Of a stretch of 64,000 nt of DNA, positions 1,722 to 59,554 are shown piece after piece. Under the pieces are notes generated by a model. It was given only the letters and a program-made list of their open reading frames with translations, made no database searches and was not told the DNA's origin. The position numbers and the translations under genes were made by a program. Position 1 is the stretch's first letter. The number at the start of each line of letters is the position of its first letter. This DNA is from Labilibaculum filiforme (GTDB lineage: Bacteria > Bacteroidota > Bacteroidia > Bacteroidales > Marinifilaceae), in the NCBI RefSeq assembly GCF_002843315.1, contig NZ_MVDD01000004.1:248001-312000 (forward strand). The letters run 5' to 3'.

Positions 1722-2129
1722 TTATTTCTCCTTTAAAATACCATTAGCTTGATCAATTAGATCCTCTGCTGTTCTTCCATTCATTCTTCCAAGAACTTCG
1801 CCTTCAGTATTCAGAATTAACAAAGTTGGATATGATTTTACTTCATAAAATGAAGCAAGTTCAATACCTTCCCCTTTTTCCATATCCATCTTAAGGCAAA
1901 CAAAATTCGTGTTATAAAACGCTCCTATTTTTTCTTGGGTGAAAACTTCTTTTGCTAACCTTTTACATGGACCACACCATTCGGTATAACAATCAATAAA
2001 AACTAACTTGTTTTCATTGTTTGCCTTAATTAAACCTTCTTCGTAAGTGCATTTTTCAAAATTAATTCCTTGTGCTGAAACACTTCCACAAAAAAGTAGA
2101 ACAATAAAAGTGATTATTATATTTTTCAT
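1722..2129 (-). CDS. Exported small thioredoxin-family protein
   Basis: This 135-residue protein has a cleavable signal peptide (about residues 1-19, ending VSAQ) and a single thioredoxin fold. The active site is W51-C52-G-P-C55 and the cis-proline motif is SYPT near residue 99. It should act in the periplasm as a thiol-disulfide oxidoreductase. It is the last gene of locus 1, 11 bases after a DsbD-N-like gene. Its N-terminal half closely resembles the thioredoxin parts of the 400- and 403-residue proteins in loci 2 and 3, but it lacks their helical C-terminal extension. The direction (reductase or oxidase) cannot be told from sequence; the CGPC site and the DsbD-N neighbours favour reduction. 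Confidence 0.92.
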   Translation of the reverse strand: MKNIIITFIVLLFCGSVSAQGINFEKCTYEEGLIKANNENKLVFIDCYTEWCGPCKRLAKEVFTQEKIGAFYNTNFVCLKMDMEKGEGIELASFYEVKSYPTLLILNTEGEVLGRMNGRTAEDLIDQANGILKEK

Positions 2130-2140
2130 TTCTTATTTTA

Positions 2141-2665
2141 TTAAAATTGTAAGTCAACAGTTTTTGTTTTAGGAGGAAAACATTGGTTTGGGTCGCAAGC
2201 TTGATAGTACAAACCACATTTAATTGGCTTGACGAACTTTACACCATCTACAACCTTATAATATCTAACAAAGAATATTTCTCCTTTAAATATTTCTACT
2301 CCTTCTGAATAAGGTTTCGCAATTGGCTTTTGCCAATCTCCAATTGGTTCCAATCCTTTTGGCGCTTCAAATCTGATTTCGGTTGTGATGTATGCCGAAG
2401 CATCAGAAGCATATGCATAAATCTGCCAATTGTTTAACAAATCGGCCTTCAATACAATTGCTAATTGATCCTTATTTTCAGACCATACCACCTTTGCATT
2501 ATAGCTTAATGGATCCATGGCTGTTGGTTTTGATGTTACAAGATCCATCTGCTCCATCTCTACCATCATCTCCAAATCGGAATCGATTTTATCGATTTGA
2601 GCTATTGCATTATTACCTCCATATAAATAGATGATCAACACGAATAGCCTTAATGCATTTTTCAT
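2141..2665 (-). CDS. Exported DsbD N-terminal-domain-like protein
   Basis: A 174-residue exported protein with a signal peptide ending NNAIAQ. The C-terminal half has the immunoglobulin-like DsbD alpha-domain pattern: NWQIYAYA, then a GLYYQAC motif with C157, and C162 in CFPPK. In DsbD this Cys pair carries electrons from the membrane domain to periplasmic partners. There is no membrane-spanning DsbD beta domain here, so the protein must receive electrons from, or pass them to, something else. It follows a ThuA-like gene by 6 bases and precedes a thioredoxin gene by 11 bases, so the three are probably translated from one message. A close paralogue lies at 4379-4900, and the same domain is fused to a ThuA-like protein at 50173-52137. 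Confidence 0.82.
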   Translation of the reverse strand: MKNALRLFVLIIYLYGGNNAIAQIDKIDSDLEMMVEMEQMDLVTSKPTAMDPLSYNAKVVWSENKDQLAIVLKADLLNNWQIYAYASDASAYITTEIRFEAPKGLEPIGDWQKPIAKPYSEGVEIFKGEIFFVRYYKVVDGVKFVKPIKCGLYYQACDPNQCFPPKTKTVDLQF

Positions 2666-2671
2666 CCTCTT

Positions 2672-4171
2672 TTAATTTAAAGTGTTAATTAACCATTTAT
2701 ATCCACCAGCTTCAGTAAAGAATAATTTAGATCTATTTTTTTTCAGCCATTTCTTCCACTCTTTTGCCGTTTTAAAATCTTCCATGGTATACTTTCTAAG
2801 AACACGATTAGCAATATCAGTTTGTTCGCCTTTACTTATTAGACCAATACATTTTTCTAAGACTTCAATTTTTCTATTGGAAACCGCTAATTGTTTAAGA
2901 TCTTTATCAACTGAAAGCACATGTCTGAAGTCTTTTGTGTGTATACAGTAAAAGAATTCTCGATTCTCTTCAATCCACGTGTAATAGGCCTTAATATCTG
3001 AACCAACAGCATTAAATGCTTCCTCTCCAACATTTTCTTCCATCCATATTTCTATTGTTGGAACTGATTTTTGTTTACTCAAAAACATCTCTTGAATTCT
3101 CGATAGTTTCTTACCTTCTGCTTTTTGCTTCTTCAATTCATCGGCACGAGCAATGCTCTTCTCATTATACTTCAACCAATCAACCTTATAAGTTTCAAAA
3201 TTTTCAAGAGTAATTTTAGATTTTCTATAATCTAAATATGGATCCCGAATAATAATGGTTTCATCCATTTTTTTTGCAATAAGACCTGCCCCGTTGAACT
3301 GTTTCATGTAGACAATGGTATTGAAAAATACATCTTTTGCTTCTTCGGTCATTATATCTGGAGACCCACTAAAACCCCATAAAAATAAATTACCATGACG
3401 CCCTAAAGCTACAGATTCGATACTTTTACATTCTGCACCACAGATGTATTCAGTATCTGGTGAATCTAAAAATCCAGCTCCACGAGATACCATCCCCAAC
3501 ACGTAATCCGAATTTTTTGCACTTAATTTTTGCACTTTCCACATTTTCATCTGCTTTGGCAAACTAGAATCATAATGCAACCAATTTTTAGGAGTCGGAT
3601 TCATCACCATAGTAGGGGTTACCTTATTTGGCGTATTGAATATTGGGTGCTGTGTTTGTAGGCTTTGCGCATCACCTTCCAAACAGTAACAATGCCAGTC
3701 TAGTTTAGAGCCTAAACTTCTTCCTAAATCTGGTGCACATTTACCAATAAAAATAGTAGCATTCTTATAATCAGAAGTTAAGTATTCTGACTTAGCATAT
3801 TTTACAAGTTTTCCATTTGTATCATATTCTTTTACTTCCTCTTTTATTGGTGTCGTTAATTCATCAAATATGGTCACATCTACTTTTGATGACATTTCCT
3901 GCTTATAATCTCTTGGATCAACACATGTAACACTAGTGAAATGTTCCTCTAAATAGGCTTTAAATGCCGGCCACCTAGTTTGATAATCTTTCTCTAAGCG
4001 TTCTGGAGCACCGCCAAATACACGACCATAATTTTCTGGCTTTGGTTTTTCTGGATTGTAACCTACGTATAGTACTTTAATATCTTTATTCGATTCCTGT
4101 GCATTTGCAACCCCTATAACAGAGCAAAACAAAACGCAAACCAATAACTTCACTATTACTAAATTTTTCAT
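2672..4171 (-). CDS. Secreted ThuA-like protein, copy 1 of 4
   Basis: 499 residues with a signal peptide ending VANAQ. The first 300 residues look like a ThuA/class I glutamine-amidotransferase-like fold: a first strand KVLYVGYNP, a VDVTIFDE strand, and ALGRHGNLFLWGFSGSP before a long helix with EEAKDVFFNTIVYMKQF. This superfamily call rests on pattern and is moderate. A conserved C-Y-C-L motif and a following His (HPIFNTP) are shared with the other three copies, as is a Cys just before ALGRH. The last 70 residues carry a separate repeated pattern (AKEWKKWLKKN, then FFTEAGGYKWLINT). It is paired with the DsbD-N-like gene 6 bases downstream. No enzyme activity can be assigned. Confidence 0.72.
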   Translation of the reverse strand: MKNLVIVKLLVCVLFCSVIGVANAQESNKDIKVLYVGYNPEKPKPENYGRVFGGAPERLEKDYQTRWPAFKAYLEEHFTSVTCVDPRDYKQEMSSKVDVTIFDELTTPIKEEVKEYDTNGKLVKYAKSEYLTSDYKNATIFIGKCAPDLGRSLGSKLDWHCYCLEGDAQSLQTQHPIFNTPNKVTPTMVMNPTPKNWLHYDSSLPKQMKMWKVQKLSAKNSDYVLGMVSRGAGFLDSPDTEYICGAECKSIESVALGRHGNLFLWGFSGSPDIMTEEAKDVFFNTIVYMKQFNGAGLIAKKMDETIIIRDPYLDYRKSKITLENFETYKVDWLKYNEKSIARADELKKQKAEGKKLSRIQEMFLSKQKSVPTIEIWMEENVGEEAFNAVGSDIKAYYTWIEENREFFYCIHTKDFRHVLSVDKDLKQLAVSNRKIEVLEKCIGLISKGEQTDIANRVLRKYTMEDFKTAKEWKKWLKKNRSKLFFTEAGGYKWLINTLN

Positions 4172-4378: not shown

Positions 4379-4900
4379 TTATAATTTAATATCTAAATCA
4401 ACCATTTTTGTTTTAGGAGGAAAACACTGATTTAAATCACAGGTCTGGTAATACAAACCAACCTTACCCTTACCTACTTTTCTGGATGTTACTTTAAAGT
4501 AGCCGATATATAAAAGCTCCCCTTCATAAACATCTAAGTCTTCCGAAAAATAATGAGCATCTGGCTTAATCCATTCTCCTATTTGTTGAATACCATTAGG
4601 TAATTCAACTTTCAATTCGGTCATAATAAATGCTGAGGTTCCTTTCTGACTAGCATAAATATGCCAATCATCTGCTATTAGCACACGCATAACAAGAGCG
4701 AGTGAACTTTTATCTTTATTCCAAACCACAAGTGCACCAAGATTAACAGGATCAGTGCCATTGGGCTTATTCAATTGAATCGTTTCATAAGCTTCAAAAG
4801 CTTTTTCTTCAAGTGCCTCATCTACTTTCTTTTCCTGAGCTGTTACACACGAGCTTGCCAAAAGAATAATGAGAATAAGAACCATATGTAATTCACGCAT
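4379..4900 (-). CDS. Exported DsbD N-terminal-domain-like protein, second copy
   Basis: 173 residues with a lipoprotein-like or cleavable signal (SSCVTAQ). The C-terminal half matches the protein at 2141-2665 closely: DWHIYASQKGTSAFIMTEL, then YYQTC with C154 and C159 in CFPPKTK. It starts 7 bases after the second ThuA-like gene, so locus 1 carries the ThuA-like/DsbD-N pair as a tandem duplication. The 207-base gap downstream, before the first pair, holds no gene. Confidence 0.8.
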   Translation of the reverse strand: MRELHMVLILIILLASSCVTAQEKKVDEALEEKAFEAYETIQLNKPNGTDPVNLGALVVWNKDKSSLALVMRVLIADDWHIYASQKGTSAFIMTELKVELPNGIQQIGEWIKPDAHYFSEDLDVYEGELLYIGYFKVTSRKVGKGKVGLYYQTCDLNQCFPPKTKMVDLDIKL

Positions 4901-4907
4901 AATCTTT

Positions 4908-6410
4908 TTATTTTATCGTATTTACCAACCACTTGTAACCACCCGACTCGGTAAAAAAAAGTTTTTCCTTATTAGATTGAAACCAATTTTCCCATTCTTT
5001 TTGTGTTGTAAAATGCTGTTCTGTATAGCGTAGTAAAATACGTTGAGCTACTTCTTTTTTATCAGTATTGTTTAATAACGCAATTGACTCTTCAAGAATC
5101 TTAAGATCATTATTTGCAATGCCTAATTGTTGTGCATCTTTATCTAATTCAAATTTGTAATTAAGAATGCTACCATGGCAATAGTAGTATGCTTTGTTTT
5201 CAAGTAAAAACTTGCGATATGCCTCCATATCAGTACCAAAAATGGTAAAGTCGTCACCCATTTTATTTTTCAAATATTCTTCGAGTGTAGGTAGCACTCC
5301 TTTATTTTTAGTTAAAAAAAACTTTTGTGGAGCGGTTAATTTGTCTCCTTTTTTTTGTTTCGCTATCAATTCAGCACGGCGTTGTATTTCCTTAGCGTTA
5401 TATCTTTCATATTCCTGAACGCTTTTCTTATAGCTTTCTTCAGAAACGTCACGAAGACTATAAGCAATTGACACTTCGCGTATTTGTATTCTATCGTTGT
5501 ATTTACGGGCAATTGGCTTTTGTCCATTAAACTGATTGATATAGACAATAGAGTTAATAAAAACCAATTGAGCTTCTTCTGTAAAATCATCAGCAGCACC
5601 ATTAAAACCCCAATGAAAAAAGTTTGCATGACGACCTAATGCTACTGCGCCAACATCTTTAACACAAACTCCACTTGAGATATATTCTGTATCGGGCGAA
5701 TCTTCGTAGCCATTGCCACGCGAAACCATGCCTGGTATTAATGCAGAATTATTATAAGATGGAGCTAATACACGCCACATTGGAATTTGTTTTGGCACAT
5801 TTTTACCAGATGGATAATGATAGATATAGTTTGGTGTATCTTTTGATTCAAAAGTAAGATCTACTTTGAATGGGGTATTAAAAATATCGTGCTCGACTCT
5901 AATATGGTGTGCATCAAATTCTAAACACAGACACAACCAATCATTTTTTAAGCCTAACGACTGACCTATTTGTGGCGAACAGATACCAATGGTAATAGTC
6001 GCTCTATCATAATCTTTAGACAAATACTCTGGAAATTCCCATTCTATTAGTTCGTTATTATCATTATATACTCTTTTTTCCTCCTTAATCGCAGTAGGCA
6101 TACCATCAAAAATGGTTACATCATAATCATCAGAAAGAGCTTCGTTATAATCACTACCATCTATTGTCTTTACATGATTAAAGTGTTTTTTAAGCAAGGT
6201 TTCATAAGATCCCATACGAACTTTCAATCGCTCGATATATTCCGTTTTATCCTCATCTCTAACAGGCATTTCCTTTGGAAGTGGCTTGTCTGGCGAATAA
6301 CCAACATAAAGCACGCTTATGTCTTTTGTGTTTTTGTCTTTCTCTACAGCACACATCGCTGTTAATAACCCAGTTAATATAACTGCAGTTAGTATAACTA
6401 TTTTCCTCAT
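4908..6410 (-). CDS. Secreted ThuA-like protein, copy 2 of 4
   Basis: 500 residues, signal peptide or lipoprotein signal ending TAMCAVEKD. It shares with copy 1 the ISVLYVGYSPDKP start, the DVTIFDG strand, the C-L-C-L-E motif with nearby His residues (DAHHIRVEHDIFNTP), the SPDTEYISSGVC segment, the ALGRHANFFHWGF segment, and the C-terminal TESGGYKWLVNT block. It is the first of the two ThuA-like/DsbD-N pairs in locus 1 and starts 170 bases after the PKD-like gene, with a hairpin in that gap. The position downstream of susCD suggests that it handles the imported ligand, or one bound at the envelope. Function unknown. Confidence 0.72.
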   Translation of the reverse strand: MRKIVILTAVILTGLLTAMCAVEKDKNTKDISVLYVGYSPDKPLPKEMPVRDEDKTEYIERLKVRMGSYETLLKKHFNHVKTIDGSDYNEALSDDYDVTIFDGMPTAIKEEKRVYNDNNELIEWEFPEYLSKDYDRATITIGICSPQIGQSLGLKNDWLCLCLEFDAHHIRVEHDIFNTPFKVDLTFESKDTPNYIYHYPSGKNVPKQIPMWRVLAPSYNNSALIPGMVSRGNGYEDSPDTEYISSGVCVKDVGAVALGRHANFFHWGFNGAADDFTEEAQLVFINSIVYINQFNGQKPIARKYNDRIQIREVSIAYSLRDVSEESYKKSVQEYERYNAKEIQRRAELIAKQKKGDKLTAPQKFFLTKNKGVLPTLEEYLKNKMGDDFTIFGTDMEAYRKFLLENKAYYYCHGSILNYKFELDKDAQQLGIANNDLKILEESIALLNNTDKKEVAQRILLRYTEQHFTTQKEWENWFQSNKEKLFFTESGGYKWLVNTIK

Positions 6411-6580: not shown

Positions 6581-8065
6581 TTACTTTTCAGCAGTAATTA
6601 CTTGAACCGCTTTTCCACAAACACCTTTAAACATATTTGTTATTTGTTTCTTTTGAGGATCGAGATAAATTACTGAACCTTTTAGTTCATCACTACTCCC
6701 TTCATTATAGGTAGCAATTACTAATTGCTGAGGATTAGTTCCAACATTTGTCATATCGAAATCCATTGGGATACCATACTCAACAGGTATATCAGCAATC
6801 TTGGTTAAAACAGGATTTAATACTGGAGTTGAATAGATTGATTGACCTATGGTGATGTAAAAATTACTACCATACTTCTTACATAAACTCTCAGCATTGA
6901 TTCCGGCTACTGGCAGAATCGTTGATTGACTGGTTTGTATATCATATACTCCAATAGGACTCCATGAAGCATATTCACGATCCATATTAAGGCTATGAAT
7001 AACAATCTCATTAGTATTTCCTGCCACGACATCCAATAAAACAACTCCCAAATCGATAGCAAGTCTTGTTTCAGTTTTACTTAAGCCCATTACTCTATAG
7101 CCATCAAAAGAAATATCTCCCAAAGGTGCTTCTGTAATCGAATTTAGATCAAATAATGGACCTCCTGGTGTATTATAAATGGTATAAATTTTATTGGAAA
7201 GTTTATCATAGCCCCAAATTTCGTCGGGCGCACTGGAACGATAGCCCCACCAGCCGCACAAGGCCCAATCGTAGGTTTCTGTAATTCCACTTGGTGCATG
7301 CATAATACCACTATTCAATACTGAGAAACCGTTTCCTGTTAAAAAATACTGATTATTGGTACTCGAAATTAATTTAGTTGGTGAAAAAGCACCTGTCCCT
7401 TGACCTTTAATATAGTTTTCTGCATTAATAATTGCAGTAGGTAAAAAGGATTGTACATTTGTTTTCACATATGGATATAACCCTTCCTGAGTTAGAATAT
7501 GCAATTCATATCCATATCTCCAATTTGCATTTTTAGCCATCCCACAAGGCTTGTTACCTAGTGTGTAATCACCTATTGTACTGGTACTAATCCATTCCGA
7601 ATTCTCATTGTAATTGGTATTAAGGTAAGAGATCAAACTTGATTCATCGGGCATTTCTGACAAAACGTAATAACCTAAATTGAAAGTTGCTACTACATTT
7701 AACTCAAATTCGTAATAGTACCTTACCCCTGTTTCTTTATCCATTACATGATAATAACAGATATTCTTCCCCATTGGTACAGAAGTTTCAATCACGTAAT
7801 CAAGATTGCGTTCCATCGATATTGTATCGCTTGTACCAATTCGCCAAGTAAATTCAAGATCGTCTTCTCGCCCCTCCAATTCTCTTGCAATAACTGGTGT
7901 TATTACCAAATGTTCTAATACCCCAACGGTGGTATCTACAGGTAAACCAGTTACTTCAACATTATTTAACTCTTTATAATCGTAATTTCCTAAGTCATCG
8001 GAGCATCCATAAGCTAATAGCAATGTTAGAAACAATATGGATGAAAATATTTTTATCATTTTCAT
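6581..8065 (-). CDS. PKD-like family surface lipoprotein
   Basis: 494 residues with a lipobox (LLLAYGC), placing it on the outer membrane. The mature start SDDLGNYDYKELN is typical of the Bacteroidota PKD-like lipoproteins found after SusD genes (PF16407, as I recall). The rest is a long beta-rich region with no catalytic motif I recognise. It begins 3 bases after the DUF4843 gene, so they are co-transcribed. Such proteins are thought to be surface ligand-binding companions of SusCD systems. Confidence 0.75.
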   Translation of the reverse strand: MKMIKIFSSILFLTLLLAYGCSDDLGNYDYKELNNVEVTGLPVDTTVGVLEHLVITPVIARELEGREDDLEFTWRIGTSDTISMERNLDYVIETSVPMGKNICYYHVMDKETGVRYYYEFELNVVATFNLGYYVLSEMPDESSLISYLNTNYNENSEWISTSTIGDYTLGNKPCGMAKNANWRYGYELHILTQEGLYPYVKTNVQSFLPTAIINAENYIKGQGTGAFSPTKLISSTNNQYFLTGNGFSVLNSGIMHAPSGITETYDWALCGWWGYRSSAPDEIWGYDKLSNKIYTIYNTPGGPLFDLNSITEAPLGDISFDGYRVMGLSKTETRLAIDLGVVLLDVVAGNTNEIVIHSLNMDREYASWSPIGVYDIQTSQSTILPVAGINAESLCKKYGSNFYITIGQSIYSTPVLNPVLTKIADIPVEYGIPMDFDMTNVGTNPQQLVIATYNEGSSDELKGSVIYLDPQKKQITNMFKGVCGKAVQVITAEK

Positions 8066-8068: not shown

Positions 8069-8860
8069 CTACGTATTAATTATTTTAATCCTCGTTTTAG
8101 ATCCATCAGGATTGGTTCCATATACCTCATTCTCATCAAAGAAAATCTTCATTTGAGTAACAAAAACCATTGTTGAAGGGTAATAATAAGGCTGAATGGG
8201 AAAAGATGCCACTGGCATATTATTCCAATACATTGGCTTATTAATATCCTCACTGGCTTCCATCCATCCAGCATATACATAATTTGGATCGGCGCCCTCG
8301 TAGTAAATTTCTTTCCATTTGAAATAAGTCTCCTTATAGAAAGTTCCAAAATATCGCTCCCAAGAATTCCACCAAATAGGAGGTAATAATATATCCGAGA
8401 ATTTAACTTTTATTTGAAGCGCATCATCTTGCCCTAAACCAAAATTTTCGTTTGATACTAATCTAAAAGTTAATGAACGTACTTCTTCTTTTAGTTCTTC
8501 AGTTCTATTAAGCTTAATGCGTAAAGTGTCATATACTGCTCCTTGTTTAATCACTAAGTTCTCGATACTTGAAGCATTCCAATCACTAGTTGCAGCGGTA
8601 CTTTCGTCTTCAATTAATTCTACTTTGTACTCACGATCAATATCTGCAGGAACACCGGCAATTGCCACGGGTATTTTAATAATATAAGATTGTACTTCAT
8701 CTACCTCTTCGGCAAAAGAAAACTCTATACTATCAAGCTCAGTAACTAAATTGATATAAGCTGTTGAGGTATTAAACTCGGTAAATTCATTTTCACTATC
8801 ACATGAACTAAATGCAAAACTTATAGTTAAGCAAATTAGTAGTATAAATATATTTTTCAT
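8069..8860 (-). CDS. DUF4843 family lipoprotein
   Basis: A lipoprotein of about 263 residues; the lipobox is FAFSSC. I chose the ATG at 8860, directly before KNIFILLICLT; the frame extends to 8881 but that part adds nothing to the signal peptide. The pattern (TAYINLVTELDSIEFSFAEE, then IPVAIAGVPADIDREYKV, and later VSNENFGLGQDDALQIKVKFSD) matches DUF4843 proteins, usually encoded between susD and a PKD-like gene. That is exactly the arrangement here. It probably forms part of the surface SusCD complex. Confidence 0.78.
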   Translation of the reverse strand: MKNIFILLICLTISFAFSSCDSENEFTEFNTSTAYINLVTELDSIEFSFAEEVDEVQSYIIKIPVAIAGVPADIDREYKVELIEDESTAATSDWNASSIENLVIKQGAVYDTLRIKLNRTEELKEEVRSLTFRLVSNENFGLGQDDALQIKVKFSDILLPPIWWNSWERYFGTFYKETYFKWKEIYYEGADPNYVYAGWMEASEDINKPMYWNNMPVASFPIQPYYYPSTMVFVTQMKIFFDENEVYGTNPDGSKTRIKIINT

Positions 8861-8988
8861 TTGATTCAAAATTAGTATCAAGTCATAAGCATCAGGATTT
8901 TGATTCGCAGAACTTATCTAAAAAAACAAATTCATTTAATCATTCTCCTAATTGTTTTATACTTAATCATGACTATTAATTAAACACC

Positions 8989-10491
8989 TTATTTACCCTC
9001 TGGACCAAATTCATATTCATCCTCTGGTATAGGTAATTCGAATATCTCCTTTGAAGGCATTACTGTATTTGACGATGATGCTTCGATAGGTTTAAATAAT
9101 CGTTTGTTGATGAAGAAAATTTCCCCATCCCCAAAAAACTCTTTACGCCTTTCACGCATTAAATAAGTCTCTACATTAACGGCCTCACTCGCCTCCAATT
9201 CAAACATCCCTCTCTTTGTACGAACTGCGTTCAGATACTCAAGAGCCTTCACATTATCAACCCCAATTAATGCTTCACACATTGTGTAGTACACTTCAGA
9301 TAAACGGATAATTGCAATTTCGGGATAGGAATAATCAGAATCTTCATCGTAATTATTTAAGGGCTCGGTGTATTTTACTAATGGATAAGAATTATTACCA
9401 GCCACTTGATCAAACCAATTTACCAAGCGATAATCACTACCGGAACCATCAGGCTGTCTTCCATAAACAAAAGTCACCAACTCATTATAAGCAGTACCAT
9501 TTATTTGTAGCTTCACAACATCCTCTCCAATACCAAGGTTAGGTCCCAATTTTATTTCTGTAAGATCCCAAAGGTCATTTCTTGATAAGGAAAAAATAAT
9601 CTCCGATGAAAACATTTTGTCTTTACCATCAGTAACTTCTTGTCCTGATAAGGCAATTGATGTATTACTTTCTAATTCTTCCAGCAATCTGTTAGCCCAG
9701 TAATACGCTCCATCTTCTTGGCTTTGGTTAAAAGACAATTGCTCAACACGTGACAATAGACCCATAACCCCGTAATAGTTTAAACGAGCAACTCTATTCA
9801 CCAGAATGTTATTATAACTTAACTGTGAGTCATTCAAATCATCTCGTTTACCTCCTGTGGTAATAGGATCCCCTTTCATTAATTCTACCGCCTCTAATAA
9901 ATCTGTTCTGGCAAAATCAAGCACTTGCTTACAGTTTGAAAAAGAGGTTGCCACATTATTAAATTCTGTTCGATATGGAATCGCCTTTTGCTCCAAATCG
10001 GAAACATTTTGAGTAACTGGTCCGAATACACGATAAACCTGCAGGTGACAAAATGCCCTTAATGCTAACACTTCGCCTTTAAATAGTTCAGCATTTTGAA
10101 TTTCTGGCATTTCATCATTAAATGCTTCTAAAATTTTATTGCACTGCCCAATACATTCATAATAGTTAGACCACCATCCATCAATTCGTGTTCTAACTGT
10201 ATTGTCCATGTAGTTAAATTTCGATAATGCATAATCATCATGCTCAATATTTTTTATATCATAATATTGGCCTAATACATCATAGGAAGCATAACTCATA
10301 TCCTGCCCGTACATTTCTGTTTCTGTTAACAGATAATAAACGCCCGCTACGGCAGAGTTCATTCCGTTAGTTGTAGTAATCAAATCATCCGCTTTAACAT
10401 CTCCAAGAGGTGTTACATCTAGCCAATCATTGCAAGCAACCAGCATCGATAGCATGGCTATGAAGCTTATATTTTTTATAATTCGTTTCAT
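8989..10491 (-). CDS. SusD/RagB family nutrient-binding lipoprotein (locus 1)
   Basis: 500 residues with lipobox SMLVAC and the mature start NDWLDVTPLGDVK, classic for SusD-family proteins. The TPR-like N-terminal region (LRAFCHLQVYRVFGPV) and the C-terminal substrate region with ERRKEFFGDGEIFFINKR are both present. SusD forms a lid on the TonB-dependent SusC channel and captures the ligand at the cell surface. It starts 18 bases after susC. The ligand is unknown; no carbohydrate-degrading gene accompanies it. Confidence 0.93.
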   Translation of the reverse strand: MKRIIKNISFIAMLSMLVACNDWLDVTPLGDVKADDLITTTNGMNSAVAGVYYLLTETEMYGQDMSYASYDVLGQYYDIKNIEHDDYALSKFNYMDNTVRTRIDGWWSNYYECIGQCNKILEAFNDEMPEIQNAELFKGEVLALRAFCHLQVYRVFGPVTQNVSDLEQKAIPYRTEFNNVATSFSNCKQVLDFARTDLLEAVELMKGDPITTGGKRDDLNDSQLSYNNILVNRVARLNYYGVMGLLSRVEQLSFNQSQEDGAYYWANRLLEELESNTSIALSGQEVTDGKDKMFSSEIIFSLSRNDLWDLTEIKLGPNLGIGEDVVKLQINGTAYNELVTFVYGRQPDGSGSDYRLVNWFDQVAGNNSYPLVKYTEPLNNYDEDSDYSYPEIAIIRLSEVYYTMCEALIGVDNVKALEYLNAVRTKRGMFELEASEAVNVETYLMRERRKEFFGDGEIFFINKRLFKPIEASSSNTVMPSKEIFELPIPEDEYEFGPEGK

Positions 10492-10509
10492 CTGTCTCTT
10501 TTTTTTTAC

Positions 10510-45888: not shown

Positions 45889-45910
45889 CTTTGTAAGTCT
45901 TTTATTTCGT

Positions 45911-47335: not shown

Positions 47336-47394
47336 GTTACAAATCATTAAAAATTCTTTTAAAAATATTTATTACTGATACGGAAATCATATCA

Positions 47395-48612: not shown

Positions 48613-50061
48613 CTATAAGTTTTCATTAATCAATTGATACAATTCTTCAGTACCTGGACGTGGCGACTCTCTACTAATTAAAAGCCCATCGGCTCCAATT
48701 AAAATGTAACGTGGAATGCCTTGAACCATTAAATCTTTTTTGAATGTGTTCTTGTTAATAGAAGTATTCAATTGAATTCCAGTAAGCACACCACCTTTAT
48801 TCTCATTCACTTTTCTCTTCCATAATTCCACATCTTCGTCAACCGAAATGCCCAGAAATACGATATTCTTTCCCGCATACTTTTCTTTCAACAAGTTGAA
48901 TTTTGGCAAGCCCGCAACACAAGGTCCACACCACGTTGCCCAACAATCCATCATTACCATCTTTCCTTTAAAATCTGATAAGGAAACTTCATTTCCATTA
49001 ATATCGGTTAAAGTAAATTGAGGAGCAGGTTTGCCATCGGCATAAGCATTTTGTCCTGCTTTATATTCTTCAAAACTTTTTAGTCTTTCTTTATCTTTTA
49101 CTTTGTCATAAATAACTCCATTCAAATAGGTTTTTATAGCATCATCATTAGCTCTCATATAACTAATAACAAAACCATTATACATATCCTCTTTGATTAA
49201 AGCAGGAAACGAACAAGTGTCTAAGCAGGCTAAATTTGTTTTAAAGTAATCCATCGACTCACGTTCATATTTCGACAATACCTCACGCATTTTATCATGA
49301 TAACCTCCTCTTACATACATGGCATATTGACCACTTTTGTGATACAAGTTAAAATCGTTTTTAGGAATTTCATTTTTGAAATAGGCATCAAACTTTACAG
49401 GAATTGTCCAGTCTTTATCTGGGTTATTTCTTTTAGCTGTTCTTGCGTACAATTGGAAAGTAAAATTATATCGTAACAGTTGTTCCAAATTATAAACCTC
49501 TAGGAAATTTTCTTGTATTGATTTTGTTTCTACAAACTTTTTAACAAGAGCTCTTTCTTTTTCCAACAAACTCAACTGATAAGCCTCAAATTCTTGAGGA
49601 TTTTTCTTTTCTACTTCTGGCAGATAAACTTCTTTATATGCTGCTCTGTCGTACTGAAATTTTGGAGAATTCACCATTAATGCATAAAGTAATTCAGTTT
49701 CATCATTATTCTCTCCAGAAATTGTTACCGCCTTTTTATCGCAGGCTTCCATCTTATCAAGATCGATATCTAGATGCAAACTCGTTCCTTTTTTCAGGTA
49801 AAGATCTAAACTACTTTCCGATCCCAATAATAGTGAGTAGTTTCCCTCTTTTATTGAATCGTAACGAACACTAAAATTGCCGTTACTATCCAGATTGATC
49901 ACTTCCTGTAATAACGTTCCGTACAGTGTTAATTCTTTATCATATCCAGTTACATGACCATCGATAGTCACGCTAATATTTTGAGCTTGTTCCGCTTTTT
50001 TTGTGCCACAGGAAACAAGGATGAAACTTACAATTACGGCTAAAAAATAATTTACTTTCAT
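48613..50061 (-). CDS. TlpA-family thioredoxin lipoprotein (locus 3)
   Basis: 482 residues; lipobox VSFILVSC. DUF4369-like N-terminal domain (VTIDGHVTGYDKELTLYG), helical middle, thioredoxin domain with WATWCGPC (C378, C381) and GIPRYILIGADG. It pairs by sequence with the 483- and 485-residue proteins, but has CGPC in place of CAPC. It is the first TlpA-type gene of locus 3, with a 111-base gap upstream that holds an inverted repeat. Confidence 0.9.
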   Translation of the reverse strand: MKVNYFLAVIVSFILVSCGTKKAEQAQNISVTIDGHVTGYDKELTLYGTLLQEVINLDSNGNFSVRYDSIKEGNYSLLLGSESSLDLYLKKGTSLHLDIDLDKMEACDKKAVTISGENNDETELLYALMVNSPKFQYDRAAYKEVYLPEVEKKNPQEFEAYQLSLLEKERALVKKFVETKSIQENFLEVYNLEQLLRYNFTFQLYARTAKRNNPDKDWTIPVKFDAYFKNEIPKNDFNLYHKSGQYAMYVRGGYHDKMREVLSKYERESMDYFKTNLACLDTCSFPALIKEDMYNGFVISYMRANDDAIKTYLNGVIYDKVKDKERLKSFEEYKAGQNAYADGKPAPQFTLTDINGNEVSLSDFKGKMVMMDCWATWCGPCVAGLPKFNLLKEKYAGKNIVFLGISVDEDVELWKRKVNENKGGVLTGIQLNTSINKNTFKKDLMVQGIPRYILIGADGLLISRESPRPGTEELYQLINENL

Positions 50062-52414: not shown

Positions 52415-53812
52415 TTAGTTAATAAGAGAAACTCCATCTCTAGGACTTTGTTCCCAAGAAGGGTTAAAGTCCATTACCTTTAATGGAATGTTCATATACC
52501 AGTTATTGGCATTAGGAGCAATTGAATAATCTTTACCCAAAAAGCTTCTCGTTAAAGTTTGAGTATAATCACCAGTAACCATTAACCTTCTCATATCGAA
52601 TAAACGTATATCTCTAAAAGCCAATTCTCTTTTTCGTTCAGCTAAAACAAATGCTAATGCAGATGTTAAATCAGGAATATCTGTTGTTGTTAAATCAACA
52701 TATGTACCTGTTACATAACGTTTACTACGAATAGTATTCATGTCATCGATAATATCCTGAACATCAGAACCTGCAGTTCTTGCAAGACACTCACTTCTAT
52801 TTAAATACAACTCTGGCACAGAAAGTCCGATATTGAATTCAGACTCGCTTGGATCAAGGTATAAGTTACCATCACCGTCGGTATTTCCAGAAGTCAATAC
52901 AGCTAATCTTCTATCATCTGCATCAAAAGTACTAGCGAAGTCCGGTGCAACAGCAAATCCAACTCCATAACGACCATAACTTATTCTTGACAAAAAGTTA
53001 TGTCTCCATTTTCCATAAATAACCTCTTGACTCTCTATAACAGTTGGAAATGGGTTATTGATATCAATAATATTACTATTAATACCTAAGGCTAAATCAG
53101 CATTTTCTTTTGCTTTATCATACTCTCCCATGAATAGATAAATTCTTGACAAAAGTGCATATGCCATATCCTTACCAGGCATAAGAGTCTTATAGTATCT
53201 AGTTTCAGGAAGATATGGTAAAGATTCAGTAAGTTCTTGAACCATATAATCATATACAGCTTTAACTGTTGCTCTATCAGGTATTTGAGCATTTACATCA
53301 GCCAAAACAACTAGAGGTACAGATAGATCAGTAGATGAAGTTGATGCATTATAAGATTTTCCAAATGCATTCACTAAATCAAAGTAATCAAAAGCACGAG
53401 CAGCTCTCGCTAATGCAACTAAAGTATTCAATTCATCTTCTGTACCTGCAATAGTTTTATTATCAGCTTCTTCAATAATACTGTTGTAAACAAAAATACG
53501 AGCGTAGCCCCATTCCCAGAACTCATTACTCTCAGTTAAACTTTCATCAGTGAAATCAGTCAATAGATAACGTCTAATGTTATTAGCATCATTTGCTGCT
53601 AAGGTTGCAGCATCACCAGTAACTTGATCAGACATTAAAACTAAACCAGCTGAAAAACGTCCTTGCATCGTATAGGTAGAAAGCATTAAAGACTCAAAAT
53701 GCTCAATTTCTGTAGGAATAAACGACCCTTTGGGTTGTTCGTTTAGGAAATCTTCACACGAAGTGAAGAAAACCGTTAAACCAATTAATATAGCAAATAT
53801 TTTATTTTTCAT
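52415..53812 (-). CDS. SusD/RagB family lipoprotein (locus 3)
   Basis: 465 residues, lipobox LTVFFTSC, mature start EDFLNEQPKGSFIP. The SusD TPR-like region (LARAARAFDYFDLVNAFG) and the C-terminal AERKRELAFRDIRLFDMRRL pattern are present. It binds the ligand at the surface together with the SusC encoded 12 bases upstream. Ligand unknown. Confidence 0.93.
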   Translation of the reverse strand: MKNKIFAILIGLTVFFTSCEDFLNEQPKGSFIPTEIEHFESLMLSTYTMQGRFSAGLVLMSDQVTGDAATLAANDANNIRRYLLTDFTDESLTESNEFWEWGYARIFVYNSIIEEADNKTIAGTEDELNTLVALARAARAFDYFDLVNAFGKSYNASTSSTDLSVPLVVLADVNAQIPDRATVKAVYDYMVQELTESLPYLPETRYYKTLMPGKDMAYALLSRIYLFMGEYDKAKENADLALGINSNIIDINNPFPTVIESQEVIYGKWRHNFLSRISYGRYGVGFAVAPDFASTFDADDRRLAVLTSGNTDGDGNLYLDPSESEFNIGLSVPELYLNRSECLARTAGSDVQDIIDDMNTIRSKRYVTGTYVDLTTTDIPDLTSALAFVLAERKRELAFRDIRLFDMRRLMVTGDYTQTLTRSFLGKDYSIAPNANNWYMNIPLKVMDFNPSWEQSPRDGVSLIN

Positions 53813-53823
53813 TTTATCCAGAA

Positions 53824-56800
53824 TTAAAAGTTAATATTTAGACCAACAGTATAAGAAGTCATAATTGGCATCTGTCTTTTACCAAAAGACATATCCATAG
53901 CTTCAGGGTCGATACCATCTTTGTTTTTAGTCCATTTTAGTGGATTCGTAACCTGGAACATAGCTTGTGCAGATCCTAAGGATAAACTTGATAAGAACTT
54001 CTTAGGAAAATTGTAGATAAAATTAACTTCTCTAAGCTTGATATAGTCAGCAGATACTACATTAATATCAGCATAAGCATATAAATAATTAGCTAAAGCA
54101 GGCTCTGTATATCTAGTCCCAACTTTTGGAATGTTTGTATGATTTTCATCACCTGGCTTTTTCCATCTTTTAGATATATCTGCATGTGGTCTATAAACCT
54201 CGTCAATAGCAATCTCAGGAACATCCTTACGCATGATGTTTCCAAAACTACCAACAAATAAGGCTGACAACTCATAGTTTTTATACTTAAACTGAGTGGT
54301 AAAACTACTAACCCATGAAGGCACTACTGTTCCGCTAAACTTAAGCATACTAGTACCTTCCATATCTATATAACTACTTGATGCTTCTCCATTCTGGTCT
54401 ATTGCTTGTGCATGTCCTTGCTCATTTAAACCAGCCCACTGGAAACTATATAAACCATTTGTAGGTTTTCCAGGAGCAGAATATAAACCACGTAGTAAAT
54501 CTTCAGGATACTGACTTCTTGTTGAAGTATTAATATCAACAACTTCGTTATGATTATACGATAATAAGAATTTTGTTCCCCAGTAAAAATCACCTTTTTC
54601 CATAACCGTTCCACCCAATTCGAATTCGAATCCTTTATTAACAATTGTACCATTGTTAAAAGTAACACGAGTCAAACCATGAGTAGGATCAATTTCCTTT
54701 CCTGATAATACATCCTTACTTTTTCGGTGGTAAAAATCAATCGAACCTGATAACTTACTATTGAATAAACCAAAATCAAGTTTTAAATTGTTCGTAATTG
54801 TTTCTTCCCACTTTAAAGAAGCATTTTTAGGTGAACTAATAGTACCAGCCAAACCGTTATGATAGGAATCAATAGATTGGCTAATTTGCAACTCTGGAAT
54901 TGCACCTCTTGCCACGTTACCATTACTACCGTAGGTATAAGTAAACTTTAAATGATCTAACCATTCAATTTCTTCCATGAACTTTTCGTTAGATACATTC
55001 CACCCAGCACCTAAAGCCCATAATGGCTTTTTATTGAATCTTGATTCTCCACCGTATAAATTGAAATTATCAATACGACCACTTGCATTAAACACATATC
55101 TATTATCGAATGTATATGCAAAGTTTCCAAAATAGGATGCATAACGGTCATCAGTAGATGTTAACTGAAAGAAATCATCATAATTCCCAAAGTAATAGCT
55201 ATAACCATAACTACCCAAAGTTCCAAAATTAAATCCTGAAAGTGAAGCTATATCCATAGGCTTCTCAATCAATGTTTTGGTATCTAAACCAAATTGACTA
55301 GTCTTATAATATTCACTATAGCGTTTACTGATTTCTCCACCACCTAATGCTGTAAATGAATGTTTACCTAATTCTTTTGTATAATTCAGAGTTCCACGAA
55401 TAGTATATGAAGAATTATCGCCAGTATTTATTTGTTGAATAGCACCTTCTGGTATTTTATCTTCAGCAATTGTACCATTAGGCCCGCCAATAGCAAAAAA
55501 TGTTCTAGCTTGAGCTACTCCTCTATGCTCTTTTCCCCAGTAACTTTTATCAGTTCTACTGCCTTTTTCATACTGAACACCACCATTGAAGTTTAAGCCT
55601 TCAATAATTTTATAATTAAAACTGGCCTTAAGTCTGGTCATATATGACTCATAACCTCGTTTTGAATGGTCAATATCATTAAGAATGTTACTAAACGTAT
55701 TTATACCATATGTATCCAATAAAGATTGAGAATGTGATAGAGGATATGAACCTCCTAATCCTAAAGGTGCACTAAGGTATCCACTAGATTGATTAGCATA
55801 ACTACCATCCTCATTCTTAAGCATTTCCCATGGAGTAATACGATCAACAACTGCACTTCTTCCACTATAACCAGGTTCAGCTGCATAAACAGGAGAATAA
55901 TCAACATCTTCGTACATGAAATTAATACCCAGACTTGCTTTTAAGCGACTGTTGATATTAAAATCGTTATTCATGCTGATATTAATTTTTTCATTTTCAT
56001 TTCCTACATATCCTCCAGATTTCTTCATGTAGTTAATCGCTGCACGATAACTAATATTTTCAGTTCCTCCTTGGATTGATAGGTCATGTTGTTGAATAGC
56101 ACCAGCTTCAAGCAACTCATCTTCAATCTGACCATAATTATCACCACGTGCTCTAAGTTCAGCAACACCAGCATTATAAACAGCTTCAGTAATAACTCCA
56201 TTTTTGTAGTCCTGCATCAATGTACCTAACTCAGTAGGGGCCCAATAATTCATATAAGCTGCAGGAGCTCCTTCGAATGATTCTTCTAGAAAGGTAATCA
56301 TTTCGTCTGCCGAAGCTTTATTTAAATAATCAAGATCCCATTTAGGAATGTATTGATGTGTAAATTTATAAGAAACTTTAGGCTTAGACTGAGTACCTTT
56401 TTTAGTTGTTATAACAATTACACCATTTGAAGATTGAGATCCCCAAATTGACGCAGCAGCAGCATCCTTAAGAAAAGTAATCTGCTCAATATCGTTAGGA
56501 TTAACACTTGACAAACCTTCACTACTTGGAAAACCGTCAATAACAACTAGTGGGGAAGAATTTTCAGACATGGTAGAAATACCACGCATAATCAAACGAT
56601 TATCATTATCTGAGTCTGGTAAGTAACTTGCCATTGAATTACCATCACCAAACGATGAGTTTAAAACCCCAGAAGTTAAACCTTCCAACTTGCTTTGCAA
56701 GCTAGTTTCCATACTTCTCATATCATCTGCTTTAACAATAGCATATGAACCAGTCGATCTTTCTTTTGAAATAGTTTGGTATCCTGTAACAATAACCTCA

Positions 56801-57459
56801 GCCATTTGTTCCGCATCAGCAAAAAGAGTTACATTAAGTACTGTTTGTCCTTCATAGACAAATTCCTGAGCAATCATTCCTACAAATGAATAAACTAAGA
56901 TAGCCTTATCTACCTCAAAACCAATAGAGTAATTTCCATCTATATCTGTAGCAGCTCCAACAGTTGTGCCTTTTACAACAACAGAAACACCTGGCAATGG
57001 AATCCCATCGTTATCTGTAACCTTACCCGTAATTATTTTCTTTTTCTGAACTGGAGAGTTTACAGACTCTGTTTTAACAGGCTTTGTAATTTCACGAGGA
57101 AACAGAACAATCATTTTATCCTCAACACGATAATCTAAATTGGTGTTTCGTAACACCTCATAAAGTACTTGATCAAGACTAGCATCATGAAACTCTACGC
57201 TAACAGCCTTCAATTCATTCACATACTCGTAGTCGTAAATAAAATCGTAGCTACACTGTTGTTGTATTTGCTCAAGAACTTCCTCAACACTAGCTTTCTC
57301 CATCCTAAAATTTAAGGATGTTTGCGAAAAAATCTCATTCGCATTAACACTCAAAATTCCTAGCAGAAATAAAAATACACTTAGCTTCATGGTTAGTAGT
57401 ATTTTTCTTAGCGGTGAGAATCTATTCTCACAGCCAACGTAAACACAATTTTTTTTCAT
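53824..57459 (-). CDS. SusC/RagA TonB-linked transporter with STN domain (locus 3)
   Basis: 1211 residues, the longest of the three. Signal peptide ending NANEIFSQ, STN domain (about 50-118), carboxypeptidase-regulatory-like domain (ITGKVTDNDGIPLPGVSVVVKG), plug (DAAAASIWGSQSSNGVIVIT) and a barrel ending VGLNINF. The plug has WGSQSSNG in place of the usual YGSRAANG. The STN domain links it to the FecR protein encoded upstream. It is the importer of the locus with the largest redox gene set. Confidence 0.94.
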   Translation of the reverse strand: MKKNCVYVGCENRFSPLRKILLTMKLSVFLFLLGILSVNANEIFSQTSLNFRMEKASVEEVLEQIQQQCSYDFIYDYEYVNELKAVSVEFHDASLDQVLYEVLRNTNLDYRVEDKMIVLFPREITKPVKTESVNSPVQKKKIITGKVTDNDGIPLPGVSVVVKGTTVGAATDIDGNYSIGFEVDKAILVYSFVGMIAQEFVYEGQTVLNVTLFADAEQMAEVIVTGYQTISKERSTGSYAIVKADDMRSMETSLQSKLEGLTSGVLNSSFGDGNSMASYLPDSDNDNRLIMRGISTMSENSSPLVVIDGFPSSEGLSSVNPNDIEQITFLKDAAAASIWGSQSSNGVIVITTKKGTQSKPKVSYKFTHQYIPKWDLDYLNKASADEMITFLEESFEGAPAAYMNYWAPTELGTLMQDYKNGVITEAVYNAGVAELRARGDNYGQIEDELLEAGAIQQHDLSIQGGTENISYRAAINYMKKSGGYVGNENEKINISMNNDFNINSRLKASLGINFMYEDVDYSPVYAAEPGYSGRSAVVDRITPWEMLKNEDGSYANQSSGYLSAPLGLGGSYPLSHSQSLLDTYGINTFSNILNDIDHSKRGYESYMTRLKASFNYKIIEGLNFNGGVQYEKGSRTDKSYWGKEHRGVAQARTFFAIGGPNGTIAEDKIPEGAIQQINTGDNSSYTIRGTLNYTKELGKHSFTALGGGEISKRYSEYYKTSQFGLDTKTLIEKPMDIASLSGFNFGTLGSYGYSYYFGNYDDFFQLTSTDDRYASYFGNFAYTFDNRYVFNASGRIDNFNLYGGESRFNKKPLWALGAGWNVSNEKFMEEIEWLDHLKFTYTYGSNGNVARGAIPELQISQSIDSYHNGLAGTISSPKNASLKWEETITNNLKLDFGLFNSKLSGSIDFYHRKSKDVLSGKEIDPTHGLTRVTFNNGTIVNKGFEFELGGTVMEKGDFYWGTKFLLSYNHNEVVDINTSTRSQYPEDLLRGLYSAPGKPTNGLYSFQWAGLNEQGHAQAIDQNGEASSSYIDMEGTSMLKFSGTVVPSWVSSFTTQFKYKNYELSALFVGSFGNIMRKDVPEIAIDEVYRPHADISKRWKKPGDENHTNIPKVGTRYTEPALANYLYAYADINVVSADYIKLREVNFIYNFPKKFLSSLSLGSAQAMFQVTNPLKWTKNKDGIDPEAMDMSFGKRQMPIMTSYTVGLNINF

Positions 57460-57472
57460 AAATTTGAAATTG

Positions 57473-57557: not shown

Positions 57558-57605
57558 TTTTTTCATAAGCTCCTTCATTTAAAGGATATTTTTTTCTATT
57601 ATCAG

Positions 57606-58766
57606 TTATTTCTTAGATACTATCATTTCTCTTTTATCTAAATCGATCTGAACTGGTGAAACTTCCTCAATCAGACTAATTAACTTATCAATATTTTCGT
57701 ATCGGTTTATTACACCCGATATTCTTCTTTCTAGCAATGCTTGATCCTTACAATTTACTTCGACACCATACCATCTAGACACTTTTCGAAATACGCTACC
57801 CAAAGGTTCTTTATCAAAAAGGAATTTTCCATCCCGCCAGGCTAAAAATTCCGAAGCATCTACTTCTCGAACCTGAATTTTACTTGTATTTCTATTTAAT
57901 CCTGACTGTTCGCCTGGTGCTAGAATTACATTCTTCTCTCCAAAAGCAAACTTCACTTTTCCTTCTACAAGTGTTGTTTGTATTTCGGCCTCATCGGCAT
58001 AAGCCATAACATTAAACACCGTACCCAACACTTCCACCTCCGAACCATTCGCTAAATGAACAATGAAAGGCCTTTTAGCATCCTTCGCTACTTCAAAACA
58101 AGCTTCTCCTCCAAGCAATTTTAGTTCTCTCTTTCCTTTTCCAAACTCAACAGGATATTCAATACTGGTTTGAGCATTTAACTGCACTTTGGTTCCATCC
58201 GATAAAACCAATGTATATTCTCCTTGAACTGGAGTACTAATTTTATTGTATGCTAATACATCTTCAGTAGCTTCTCCGGCCTGATATACCAAACTATTAT
58301 TTTGGTTACTTGCCAACTTTCCTTTTCCTGTTTTAATTTCCTTTCCCTGAAAATCTTCCAAATAAATGGTTTTCCCATTAGCAAGTTGCAAACTGGCTTT
58401 CGGGCTACCTGCCTCCACCAATACTTCATTTTGACTCCAATAAACTTCGTTAAGCAAATAAGTAGTTGCCAATAAGGGAAGCAAAAATATAGCCGCCCAC
58501 TTCATCACATTTCTCAATCTAAAAATTGGACGTTCTCCTAATTCCGGTATCCGCTTTGTAATTTGGCTCCACTGTTTTTCCTCATTAATCTTCGAATAAA
58601 ATTCCTGCTTTTCCTGAATGCATTTATAATCGGATGCCCTTTTATATGCACTCTCTTCTGCTCTCCCACTTTCTTTCCAAATAGTTAATTGACGAGTTTC
58701 TTCATCCGTTAACTGTCCCACCTTTTCTTTGGAAATTAGCTTTGCAATATCAAATATGTTTTTCAT
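57606..58766 (-). CDS. FecR-family anti-sigma factor (locus 3)
   Basis: 386 residues: cytoplasmic part, membrane segment (about 88-108, VMKWAAIFLLPLLATTYLL), FecR domain (YTLVLSDGTKVQLNAQTSIE, LKLLGGEACFEVAKDAK) and C-terminal DUF4974. It is the anti-sigma partner of the sigma factor encoded 236 bases upstream and senses the STN domain of the SusC downstream. Confidence 0.93.
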   Translation of the reverse strand: MKNIFDIAKLISKEKVGQLTDEETRQLTIWKESGRAEESAYKRASDYKCIQEKQEFYSKINEEKQWSQITKRIPELGERPIFRLRNVMKWAAIFLLPLLATTYLLNEVYWSQNEVLVEAGSPKASLQLANGKTIYLEDFQGKEIKTGKGKLASNQNNSLVYQAGEATEDVLAYNKISTPVQGEYTLVLSDGTKVQLNAQTSIEYPVEFGKGKRELKLLGGEACFEVAKDAKRPFIVHLANGSEVEVLGTVFNVMAYADEAEIQTTLVEGKVKFAFGEKNVILAPGEQSGLNRNTSKIQVREVDASEFLAWRDGKFLFDKEPLGSVFRKVSRWYGVEVNCKDQALLERRISGVINRYENIDKLISLIEEVSPVQIDLDKREMIVSKK

Positions 58767-59002
58767 TTCTTTTGTGTGATTTAATTAAGAGACCCCTAAG
58801 TTTGAAAAGAGTGTTAGTGGAAATGTGTATTTTTTTGAAAAAAAATTAATTTGTGCTAAAACAGAGCGTCTTAAGCAAACAAAATCTCTATAAAACCCGC
58901 AGAATAGAAAAGCCACAGCTTTCCATCCTTAATAAGTTAAGAATTTTCGATGAATAAATTTAATCCTTGTTAAAAGGATGTGTAGAAATGCGAATAGTTC
59001 TT

Positions 59003-59554
59003 TTAAGCATTTAGGTCGAGAAGAATAGCAATAAGATAGACATGCTTACCCAGCTTCTCGCGTAAATCCCTATAAGCATTTAACTTATGCGATTTTATGG
59101 TATTCATTTTTAAGCCCATAATATCGGCTATTTCCTGATTTTTTAAGCCCAACAAACTATACCGAATAATTTGTTGCCTTTGCACAGGTAATTCTGCTAT
59201 GAACTTATACAAGAGTCGAGATACCTCTTCGGACAAAACCTGATCGAGAAAAAACTCCTCCGACTCCAATTTAGGAAGTGTTTCTTCAAGGTATTTGGCT
59301 TTTACCTGCTCGTGCTTAATTGTATTCAAACATCTGTTTCGAACCGCACGATACAAATACACTTTTAAAGCAATCTCGTTTTGATATTCATCTTGCTTTT
59401 CCCAGAGGCTAACAAATACCTCCTGTACCAAATCTTCACTTAAACTAAGATCAGCAACAAAACCATTTGCAAAGCCAACCAATGCCTTAAAATACGAATC
59501 GAACATTTTTCGAAAATTGGATTTTGTAAGACGTATACTTGATGATTTTGTCAT
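59003..59554 (-). CDS. ECF sigma factor (locus 3)
   Basis: 183 residues; region 2 (SEDLVQEVFVSLWEKQDEY) and region 4 (LPVQRQQIIRYSLLGLKNQEIADIMG) are clear, and the C-terminus is hydrophobic (VYLIAILLDLNA). It heads locus 3. Its sequence is close to the locus 2 factor, so the two loci might cross-regulate. Confidence 0.93.
   Translation of the reverse strand: MTKSSSIRLTKSNFRKMFDSYFKALVGFANGFVADLSLSEDLVQEVFVSLWEKQDEYQNEIALKVYLYRAVRNRCLNTIKHEQVKAKYLEETLPKLESEEFFLDQVLSEEVSRLLYKFIAELPVQRQQIIRYSLLGLKNQEIADIMGLKMNTIKSHKLNAYRDLREKLGKHVYLIAILLDLNA

Follow-up and report, generated by a model that had tools for sequence, protein, structure and literature searches.

RagAB/SusCD uptake systems that carry an STN domain on SusC and are governed by FecR and an extracytoplasmic function (ECF) sigma factor follow the gene order sigma-FecR-SusC(STN)-SusD, and signalling from the ligand through SusCD/STN and FecR to the sigma factor is established for this type of locus. 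DsbD, for its part, belongs to the reducing branch of the Dsb system. In Escherichia coli, the cyuPA operon serves cysteine fermentation, with the desulfidase CyuA working together with a dedicated cysteine importer, as described in the excerpted text of PMC9040844. Here we describe a 64,000-nucleotide stretch of Labilibaculum filiforme (contig NZ_MVDD01000004.1, our G000:C4:248001-312000; hereafter the window), which makes up 1.2% of a 5.2-Mb genome in 55 contigs and, together with its left flank, combines elements of all three.

Three loci of the window share the gene order and all domains of the first system, but their accessory genes form a disulfide-reduction set instead of glycan enzymes. 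A full DsbD is encoded next door, and DsbD_N domains with their cysteine pair are recognised in the window by sequence and fold; unlike in DsbD itself, they are either free-standing or fused to a new domain, here called the CxC family after its Cys-x-Cys motif, with several copies inside the import loci. A CyuA desulfidase is likewise encoded beside an importer, whereas, compared with the cyuPA arrangement as excerpted (PMC9040844), that importer is an outer-membrane SusCD pair joined by a peptidase and a reducing chain. We conclude that FecR/sigma-type SusCD importers probably have a dedicated reducing set, and we propose tentatively, at slightly less than even confidence, that these SusCD loci with their own periplasmic disulfide-reduction chain take up cystine-containing peptides whose cysteine is then fermented.

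A conserved CxC family linked to SusCD uptake

All three loci run on the minus strand with sigma factor, FecR, STN-bearing SusC and SusD in a row, an arrangement claimed in a first-pass annotation of the window and with which Pfam agrees. Locus A (8989-15790) comprises SusD (8989..10491), SusC (10510..13827), FecR (13911..15071) and an ECF sigma factor (15236..15790); the same genes lie at 31961..33376, 33388..36789, 36896..38095 and 38171..38731 in locus B (31961-38731) and at 52415..53812, 53824..57459, 57606..58766 and 59003..59554 in locus C (52415-59554), and all three SusCs exceed the TIGR04056 cut-off. Pfam was run on 45 of the window's 47 open reading frames (ORFs) of at least 100 aa, the remaining two overlapping genes that were covered; as the same annotation had it, no glycoside hydrolase, lyase, sulfatase or peptidase is among them, and neither they nor the ten left-flank genes scanned include a glycan-degrading enzyme, so that we do not class the loci as polysaccharide utilisation loci. 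Among solved SusDs, that of locus C is by far closest to chain 8ypt (1.4e-27), on whose imported substrate no paper was found by entry codes in open-licence PMC.

The window encodes four minus-strand proteins of the CxC family, with 33-41% mutual identity. Three stand alone by homology and alignment: those at 2672..4171 and 4908..6410, each adjoining a DsbD_N gene, and that at 43152..44642, which served as query for the family search and for a second structure model. The fourth (50173..52137, 654 aa; Pfam, alignment and model) carries its CxC-family domain in the N-terminal part and a C-terminal DsbD_N domain, the commonest form in relatives. A fifth, 5'-truncated CxC/DsbD_N gene that has lost its first half was overlooked in the first pass; it occupies 1..162 of the minus strand and continues left of the window (L006 18798-20000). 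None of the three stand-alone proteins has a Pfam family match, nor does a plus-strand ORF (632-1381) near the truncated copy. The CxC motif is present in all 35 aligned family members, in which C156-x-C158, H170, E239, K248, R257, H258 and N260 (50173 numbering) are invariant, and each of the 25 DsbD_N-fused rows of the alignment retains a C-x4-C pair.

With the window's own genome counted, the CxC family occurs within the Marinifilaceae as delimited by GTDB in 20 of 56 genomes, from 8 of 17 genera; no other genome of the window's genus has it among the eight searched, one of which is 63% complete. A search of limited sensitivity across a phylum sample found it in one of 395 genomes, the window's own, where it scored three of six own-genome candidates and so listed three of five own-genome matches. 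Relatives also turned up in other contigs: ten named loci carry the family, and the labels of their contigs include Phocaeicola, Prevotella, Wocania and Cellulophaga, the last two with relatives at 62% identity. Owing to both circumstances, its spread was measured inside the Marinifilaceae.

For its gene neighbourhood we counted 36 members, all outside the window's genome, from 24 genomes or records, with several members per genome included; L013 and L015 (duplicates of G439 and G403) and members shorter than 280 aa were omitted, as were G415, the G412 fragments and L017, where our simple ORF caller favoured an overlapping frame. Gene labels in relatives and flanks come from phmmer or blastp against the proteins of the window and flank, by which distant members can be missed. 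For 30 of the 36, a SusC gene is found on the same strand no more than 10 kb away, whereas a random site in the window's genome would fall that close to a SusC with a chance of about 6% (hand estimate from 26 full SusC genes in 5.2 Mb). SusD lies in the same range for 29 members and is a direct neighbour of 13, FecR is within 12 kb of 27, and a thioredoxin or TlpA gene within 5 kb of 25. The members lacking SusC in range sit near contig ends (G431, G438d and L009), are shortened copies (G442d and G442e) or come from a contig labelled Gammaproteobacteria (L011). DsbD_N is fused to 27 members, lies within two genes of seven (one such neighbour being itself a fused copy) and is absent from two, one of them a 293-aa fragment. 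The link of the CxC family to SusCD uptake is thus real. The strongest sign that the CxC-family and DsbD_N domains would work together is that they are fused in some genomes and adjacent in others. The neighbourhood comparison recommended in the first-pass annotation therefore comes out in its favour, with CxC family, DsbD_N, thioredoxin/TlpA and SusCD recurring together across the Marinifilaceae.

Twenty neighbour genes in relatives were also scanned with Pfam. Two Met-zincin genes and an S9 peptidase stand in the G405 locus and another S9 peptidase in the Wocania locus (L010), while genes in the G404c and G401 loci match, by size and position alone, those of G405; the other scanned neighbours are riboflavin genes, an intron maturase, an HU-like protein, IMP dehydrogenase, an FG-GAP protein, additional PKD_2/DUF4843 proteins and two without family. 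As observations on their own, a group II intron maturase-like ORF (L062:2800-3534) separates SusD from SusC in a CxC-family locus of G442, and the CxC-family loci in L089-L092 (G402 and G404, of one genus) are near-identical in gene sizes and order, possibly through recent transfer.

The first-pass annotation had called these proteins ThuA-like, after the trehalose utilisation family (PF06283). They do form one homologous family, as it had supposed, but the name finds no sequence support: 34 members yield no PF06283 match at Pfam E-values up to 10 (HMMER filters drop most above ~0.1), and the invariant CxC and the DsbD_N fusion set them further apart. The model of the fused protein at 50173 (pLDDT 89.6) matches nDsbD structures best in its C-terminal part, and because the DsbD_N part dominated the first Foldseek search, in which adaptin ear domains also matched, the N-terminal domain was modelled alone. 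This model (pLDDT 89.2) has no Foldseek match at E 0.001 or better; weaker matches (E 3e-3 to 1e-2, TM-scores of 0.42 or less) are mostly of amidotransferase type, mixed with dehydrogenases, NAD kinase and others, and a sequence-profile search of the PDB returned no match to the family. A glutamine-amidotransferase-like fold, perhaps the one likeness to ThuA, is thus weakly suggested, and the label "ThuA" conjectures a fold without assigning the proteins to a family. The CxC family is a conserved family that no Pfam model names.

Thioredoxin and DsbD_N proteins and the FecR type of locus

Eleven proteins with WCxxC sites lie on the minus strand, each with a thioredoxin-fold profile, and their split into seven CGPC, two CAPC and two CGAC is exactly as first annotated. 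The CGPC proteins are a 135-aa thioredoxin with an export-like N-terminus (1722..2129), two thioredoxins with long C-terminal extensions (27743..28945 and 47395..48606), two DUF4369-TlpA lipoproteins (40441..41637 and 44686..45921) and two TlpA-type lipoproteins (45911..47347 and 48613..50061); CAPC occurs in two further TlpA-type lipoproteins (30381..31832 and 41655..43112) and CGAC in two DUF4369-TlpA proteins (29220..30371 and 39281..40420). All eleven are putatively exported, judging by export-like N-termini read by eye, with a lipobox pattern in the six lipoproteins. Tandem duplication is evident, 29220 and 39281 being 64% identical and 30381, 41655 and 48613 48-52% identical. A further DUF4369 protein (16261..16950, minus strand) shows no thioredoxin domain.

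The four DsbD-N-like domains of the first-pass annotation are all present, three of them reaching the PF11412 cut-off of 25 bits: a stand-alone domain at 4379..4900 (30 bits), the protein at 17177..17650 (40.9 bits), whose counterparts in same-genus genomes lie beside DsbD, and the C-terminus of 50173-52137 (25 bits, and 28.2 in a second scan). The stand-alone domain at 2141..2665 falls short with 21.2 bits. All are on the minus strand, their cysteine pair being C-x4-C, or C-x6-C in 17177. The fused copy matches solved nDsbD both in sequence (1l6p, 3.8e-6) and in fold (6dnv, 2.1e-5).

In Bacteroidota, acidic residues after the lipid cysteine are signals for surface export. Among the proteins caught by the lipobox pattern, SusD and DUF4843 proteins have two to three such residues and the six TlpA lipoproteins none or one (the PKD_2 protein was not caught), which in this small sample hints that the receptors may face outward and the TlpA proteins the periplasm; reduction would therefore follow import.

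Across the genome, 27 Thioredoxin_8 matches exceed the cut-off (one of 28 was dropped as below it), eight of them in the window (binomial 1e-9), as are three of the seven FecR-paired full SusC genes (binomial 6e-5); both values assume an independence that the tandem duplication breaks. A Thioredoxin_8 match lies within 15 kb of four of the seven FecR-paired full SusC genes and of none of the 19 others (Fisher p = 0.002). At the FecR-SusC loci on C5 and C6, TlpA stands next to SusD, in one of the two followed by two thioredoxins; two FecR-SusC loci on C7 show no TlpA among their labelled genes, and one has a galactokinase relative several genes downstream. In the window's genome, it is the FecR type of SusCD that TlpA genes accompany.

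The DsbD-M16-CyuA module and the proposed pathway

Immediately to the left of the window and on the same strand, the truncated CxC/DsbD_N copy is followed by genes for DsbD (667 aa; DsbD_N, DsbD_TM and thioredoxin domains by Pfam), a 933-aa M16 peptidase whose N-terminus is export-like, CyuA (426 aa) and thioredoxin reductase (317 aa; TIGR01292, 375 bits against a cut-off of 343). Beyond these come a CysK-like pyridoxal phosphate (PLP) enzyme of 370 aa, which stays below NCBIfam cut-offs, a regulator and a further SusCD. The right flank, labelled by similarity to the window's proteins only, gave no match. The claim that redox genes replace degradative enzymes consequently fails, with the M16 peptidase and the cysteine desulfidase 4-9 kb to the left and peptidases in the G405 and Wocania loci; enzymes just outside view, which the first-pass annotation had itself named as fatal to its idea, do exist on this side and overturn the "no enzyme" part of it. 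Searched against the PDB at E up to 0.1, CyuA matches L-cysteine desulfidase alone (9he0, 1.5e-33), and the alignment supports homology by keeping the GCTE segment (Cys-Thr-Glu), the Arg and three further cysteines of the solved enzyme. The excerpted text of the desulfidase paper (PMC12647591) discusses Cys23, Glu25 and Arg223, together with a cluster that three conserved cysteines hold; to judge from the spacing, the aligned residues would be these if the chain is numbered two higher than in the paper.

This module is conserved beyond the window's genome. CyuA occurs in seven of nine genomes of the genus (own included), and of the six others with CyuA, the five that were fetched all have DsbD, M16, CyuA and thioredoxin reductase in order. 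Directly upstream of the module, the four of these in which it can be tested (the G426 contig ends there) have a DsbD_N gene 82-87% identical to our 17177 and a SusCD/TlpA/thioredoxin locus; the CxC family is missing from these loci. In the window's genome, locus A and its CxC genes sit between the DsbD_N gene and DsbD, which are neighbours in the same-genus genomes. Ten of 38 other Marinifilaceae genomes with a CyuA match were fetched as well, and eight have DsbD-M16-CyuA (13 of 15 together), with SusCD upstream in seven (not G420), thioredoxin reductase in five and the PLP enzyme in two; G442 and G404 lack the arrangement, although in G442 a SusCD pair precedes CyuA by a few kb. Overall, SusCD stands beside the module in 11 of 12 testable cases. 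By comparison, 30 CyuA loci were found in the order's other families, and the 20 of them that were labelled contain SusC, SusD, FecR, DsbD or M16 in no case, a short thioredoxin or a TonB receptor in two each, and thioredoxin reductase, the PLP enzyme or a sigma factor in one each.

From the genes, their domains and order, their conservation and the cysteine pairs we infer the following course, conditional as to the ligand, the regulation, the cellular place of each protein, the direction of electron flow and the role of the CxC domain. Ligand bound at the SusCD/STN receptor would signal through FecR to the sigma factor, and SusCD would bring it into the periplasm. Electrons would pass from NADPH via thioredoxin reductase and cytoplasmic thioredoxin to the membrane domain of DsbD, and from there to the DsbD_N modules, whether stand-alone or joined to the CxC-family protein, as well as to the TlpA/thioredoxin proteins, whereby the ligand's disulfides would be opened. 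The periplasmic M16 peptidase would then cut the reduced peptide, and cytoplasmic CyuA would split its cysteine into pyruvate, ammonia and sulfide. Of the ligands suggested in the first-pass annotation, which held that the ligand or its partner has to be reduced, we favour the disulfide-containing peptide because of the DsbD, M16, CyuA, thioredoxin reductase and CysK-like genes directly left of the window; no metal transporter or metallophore gene turned up among those scanned. If true, an outer-membrane importer would be coupled to its own electron supply, bacteria would have a route by which disulfide-rich proteins become usable, peptide cysteine would be a source of hydrogen sulfide in Bacteroidales, and a conserved protein family without a Pfam name would gain a testable role. 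A bolder and rather unlikely version holds that this would be a previously undescribed pathway of "disulfide utilisation", in which an amidotransferase-fold CxC domain wired to DsbD_N forms a new class of periplasmic enzymes that reduce SusCD-imported cystine peptides with cytoplasmic NADPH electrons for the peptidase and CyuA, and that Odoribacter, Butyricimonas (Odoribacteraceae in NCBI taxonomy) and other members of the GTDB family carry it whole or in part. No title in the open-licence PMC literature searched concerns an association of SusCD with disulfide reduction, and the excerpted text of PMC10434189 mentions TlpA once, in an expression table.

Several observations weigh against the peptide pathway. 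Among the stretches fetched, the CxC family and M16-CyuA occur together in the window's genome only: the CxC family is seen in none of the 13 other DsbD-M16-CyuA loci, and G442 and G404 have CxC-family loci yet encode CyuA with neither DsbD nor M16 beside it; the substrate proposed for one module may therefore not hold for the other. CyuA, present in 40 of 42 good-quality Marinifilaceae genomes and hence core to the family, may serve other ends, and G420 has DsbD-M16-CyuA and thioredoxin reductase with no SusCD nearby. FecR is labelled next to the module's SusC in six of 11 cases (G427, G428, G422, G396, G399 and G398), cannot be judged in G423 and G429, where the stretch starts at SusC, and is seen in none of G443, G434 and G444, so that it is not constant. 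Most CxC-family loci have no peptidase among their labelled or scanned genes, which do not cover every neighbour, and the association of the family with SusCD was counted with no matched random-gene control and with several members from one genome. Solved relatives of the SusC and SusD proteins do not separate peptide from glycan receptors and so give no indication of the ligand class. Because loci B and C have their TlpA genes in common, the four-of-seven comparison is not fully independent, and 17 of the 27 Thioredoxin_8 matches have no full SusC within 15 kb; where the first-pass annotation had staked its idea on these genes not being scattered without SusCD, the CxC family passes and TlpA partly fails.

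The same 17 matches favour envelope housekeeping, a role in which the redox proteins would hold the cysteines of lipoproteins, of SusCD partners or of cytochromes in the reduced state, the ligand not being their target. TlpA and DsbD_N are general periplasmic redox parts, and cysteines for them to serve are at hand, one to three in the unprocessed SusCs and two to six in the SusD, PKD_2 and DUF4843 proteins. A general service to SusCD would not, however, pick out one type of locus as Thioredoxin_8 does here, an argument softened by three relatives in which TlpA accompanies a SusC with no labelled FecR; moreover, C1 of this genome carries another full-size DsbD, and the 15 kb fetched around that gene contain no labelled SusC. 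We consider housekeeping unlikely. Accretion, to which we assign a similarly low probability, would have FecR-SusCD-TlpA cassettes with differing ligands gathering at one site by duplication and transfer, with no joint pathway and with M16-CyuA as bystanders: duplication is clear, one CxC copy is truncated, relatives as close as those in Wocania and Cellulophaga exist, locus A with its CxC genes lies between two genes that adjoin in same-genus genomes, and an unrelated corrinoid island parts the loci. What tells against it is that the same kinds of gene recur together across many genomes, with 34 of 36 CxC-family members having DsbD_N as a fused domain or no more than two genes away. A third alternative is the handling of a thiol-bound metal or metallophore, copper and cytochrome assembly being among the tasks of TlpA/DsbD chains elsewhere in bacteria; here the invariant CxC, H170, H258, E239, K248 and R257 of 35 members would include metal ligands, the cysteines and histidines of the exported family binding metal and DsbD_N/TlpA keeping those cysteines reduced for loading or release. 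The corrinoid island contains a CobW-type GTPase, of a family that has metal-chaperone members, but this gene sits among corrinoid genes, and neither the scanned window ORFs nor the ten genes of the left flank nor the 20 neighbours scanned in relatives include an identified gene for a metal transporter, metal regulator or siderophore. We consider metal handling improbable.

Other genes of the window

Beside SusD of locus A, on the minus strand, Pfam identifies a PKD_2 protein (6581..8065) and a DUF4843 protein (8069..8881). The corrinoid methyl-transfer island that parts loci A and B (18090-26469, minus strand), missed in the first pass, encodes RACo, a methionine-synthase-activation-like protein, CobW, a URO-D-thioredoxin fusion (SCAPC), a B12-binding protein, a second URO-D and a galactokinase-like protein, with a divergent AraC regulator (26613-27518, plus strand) beside it; as its genes match cytoplasmic enzyme families, we set it aside as a member of the system. 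Rfam and tRNA searches of the window gave no matches. A gene for a BLUF blue-light sensor (59754-60179, minus strand) lies directly upstream of locus C, and a protein with NYN and OST-HTH domains is encoded at 62896-63660 on the plus strand.

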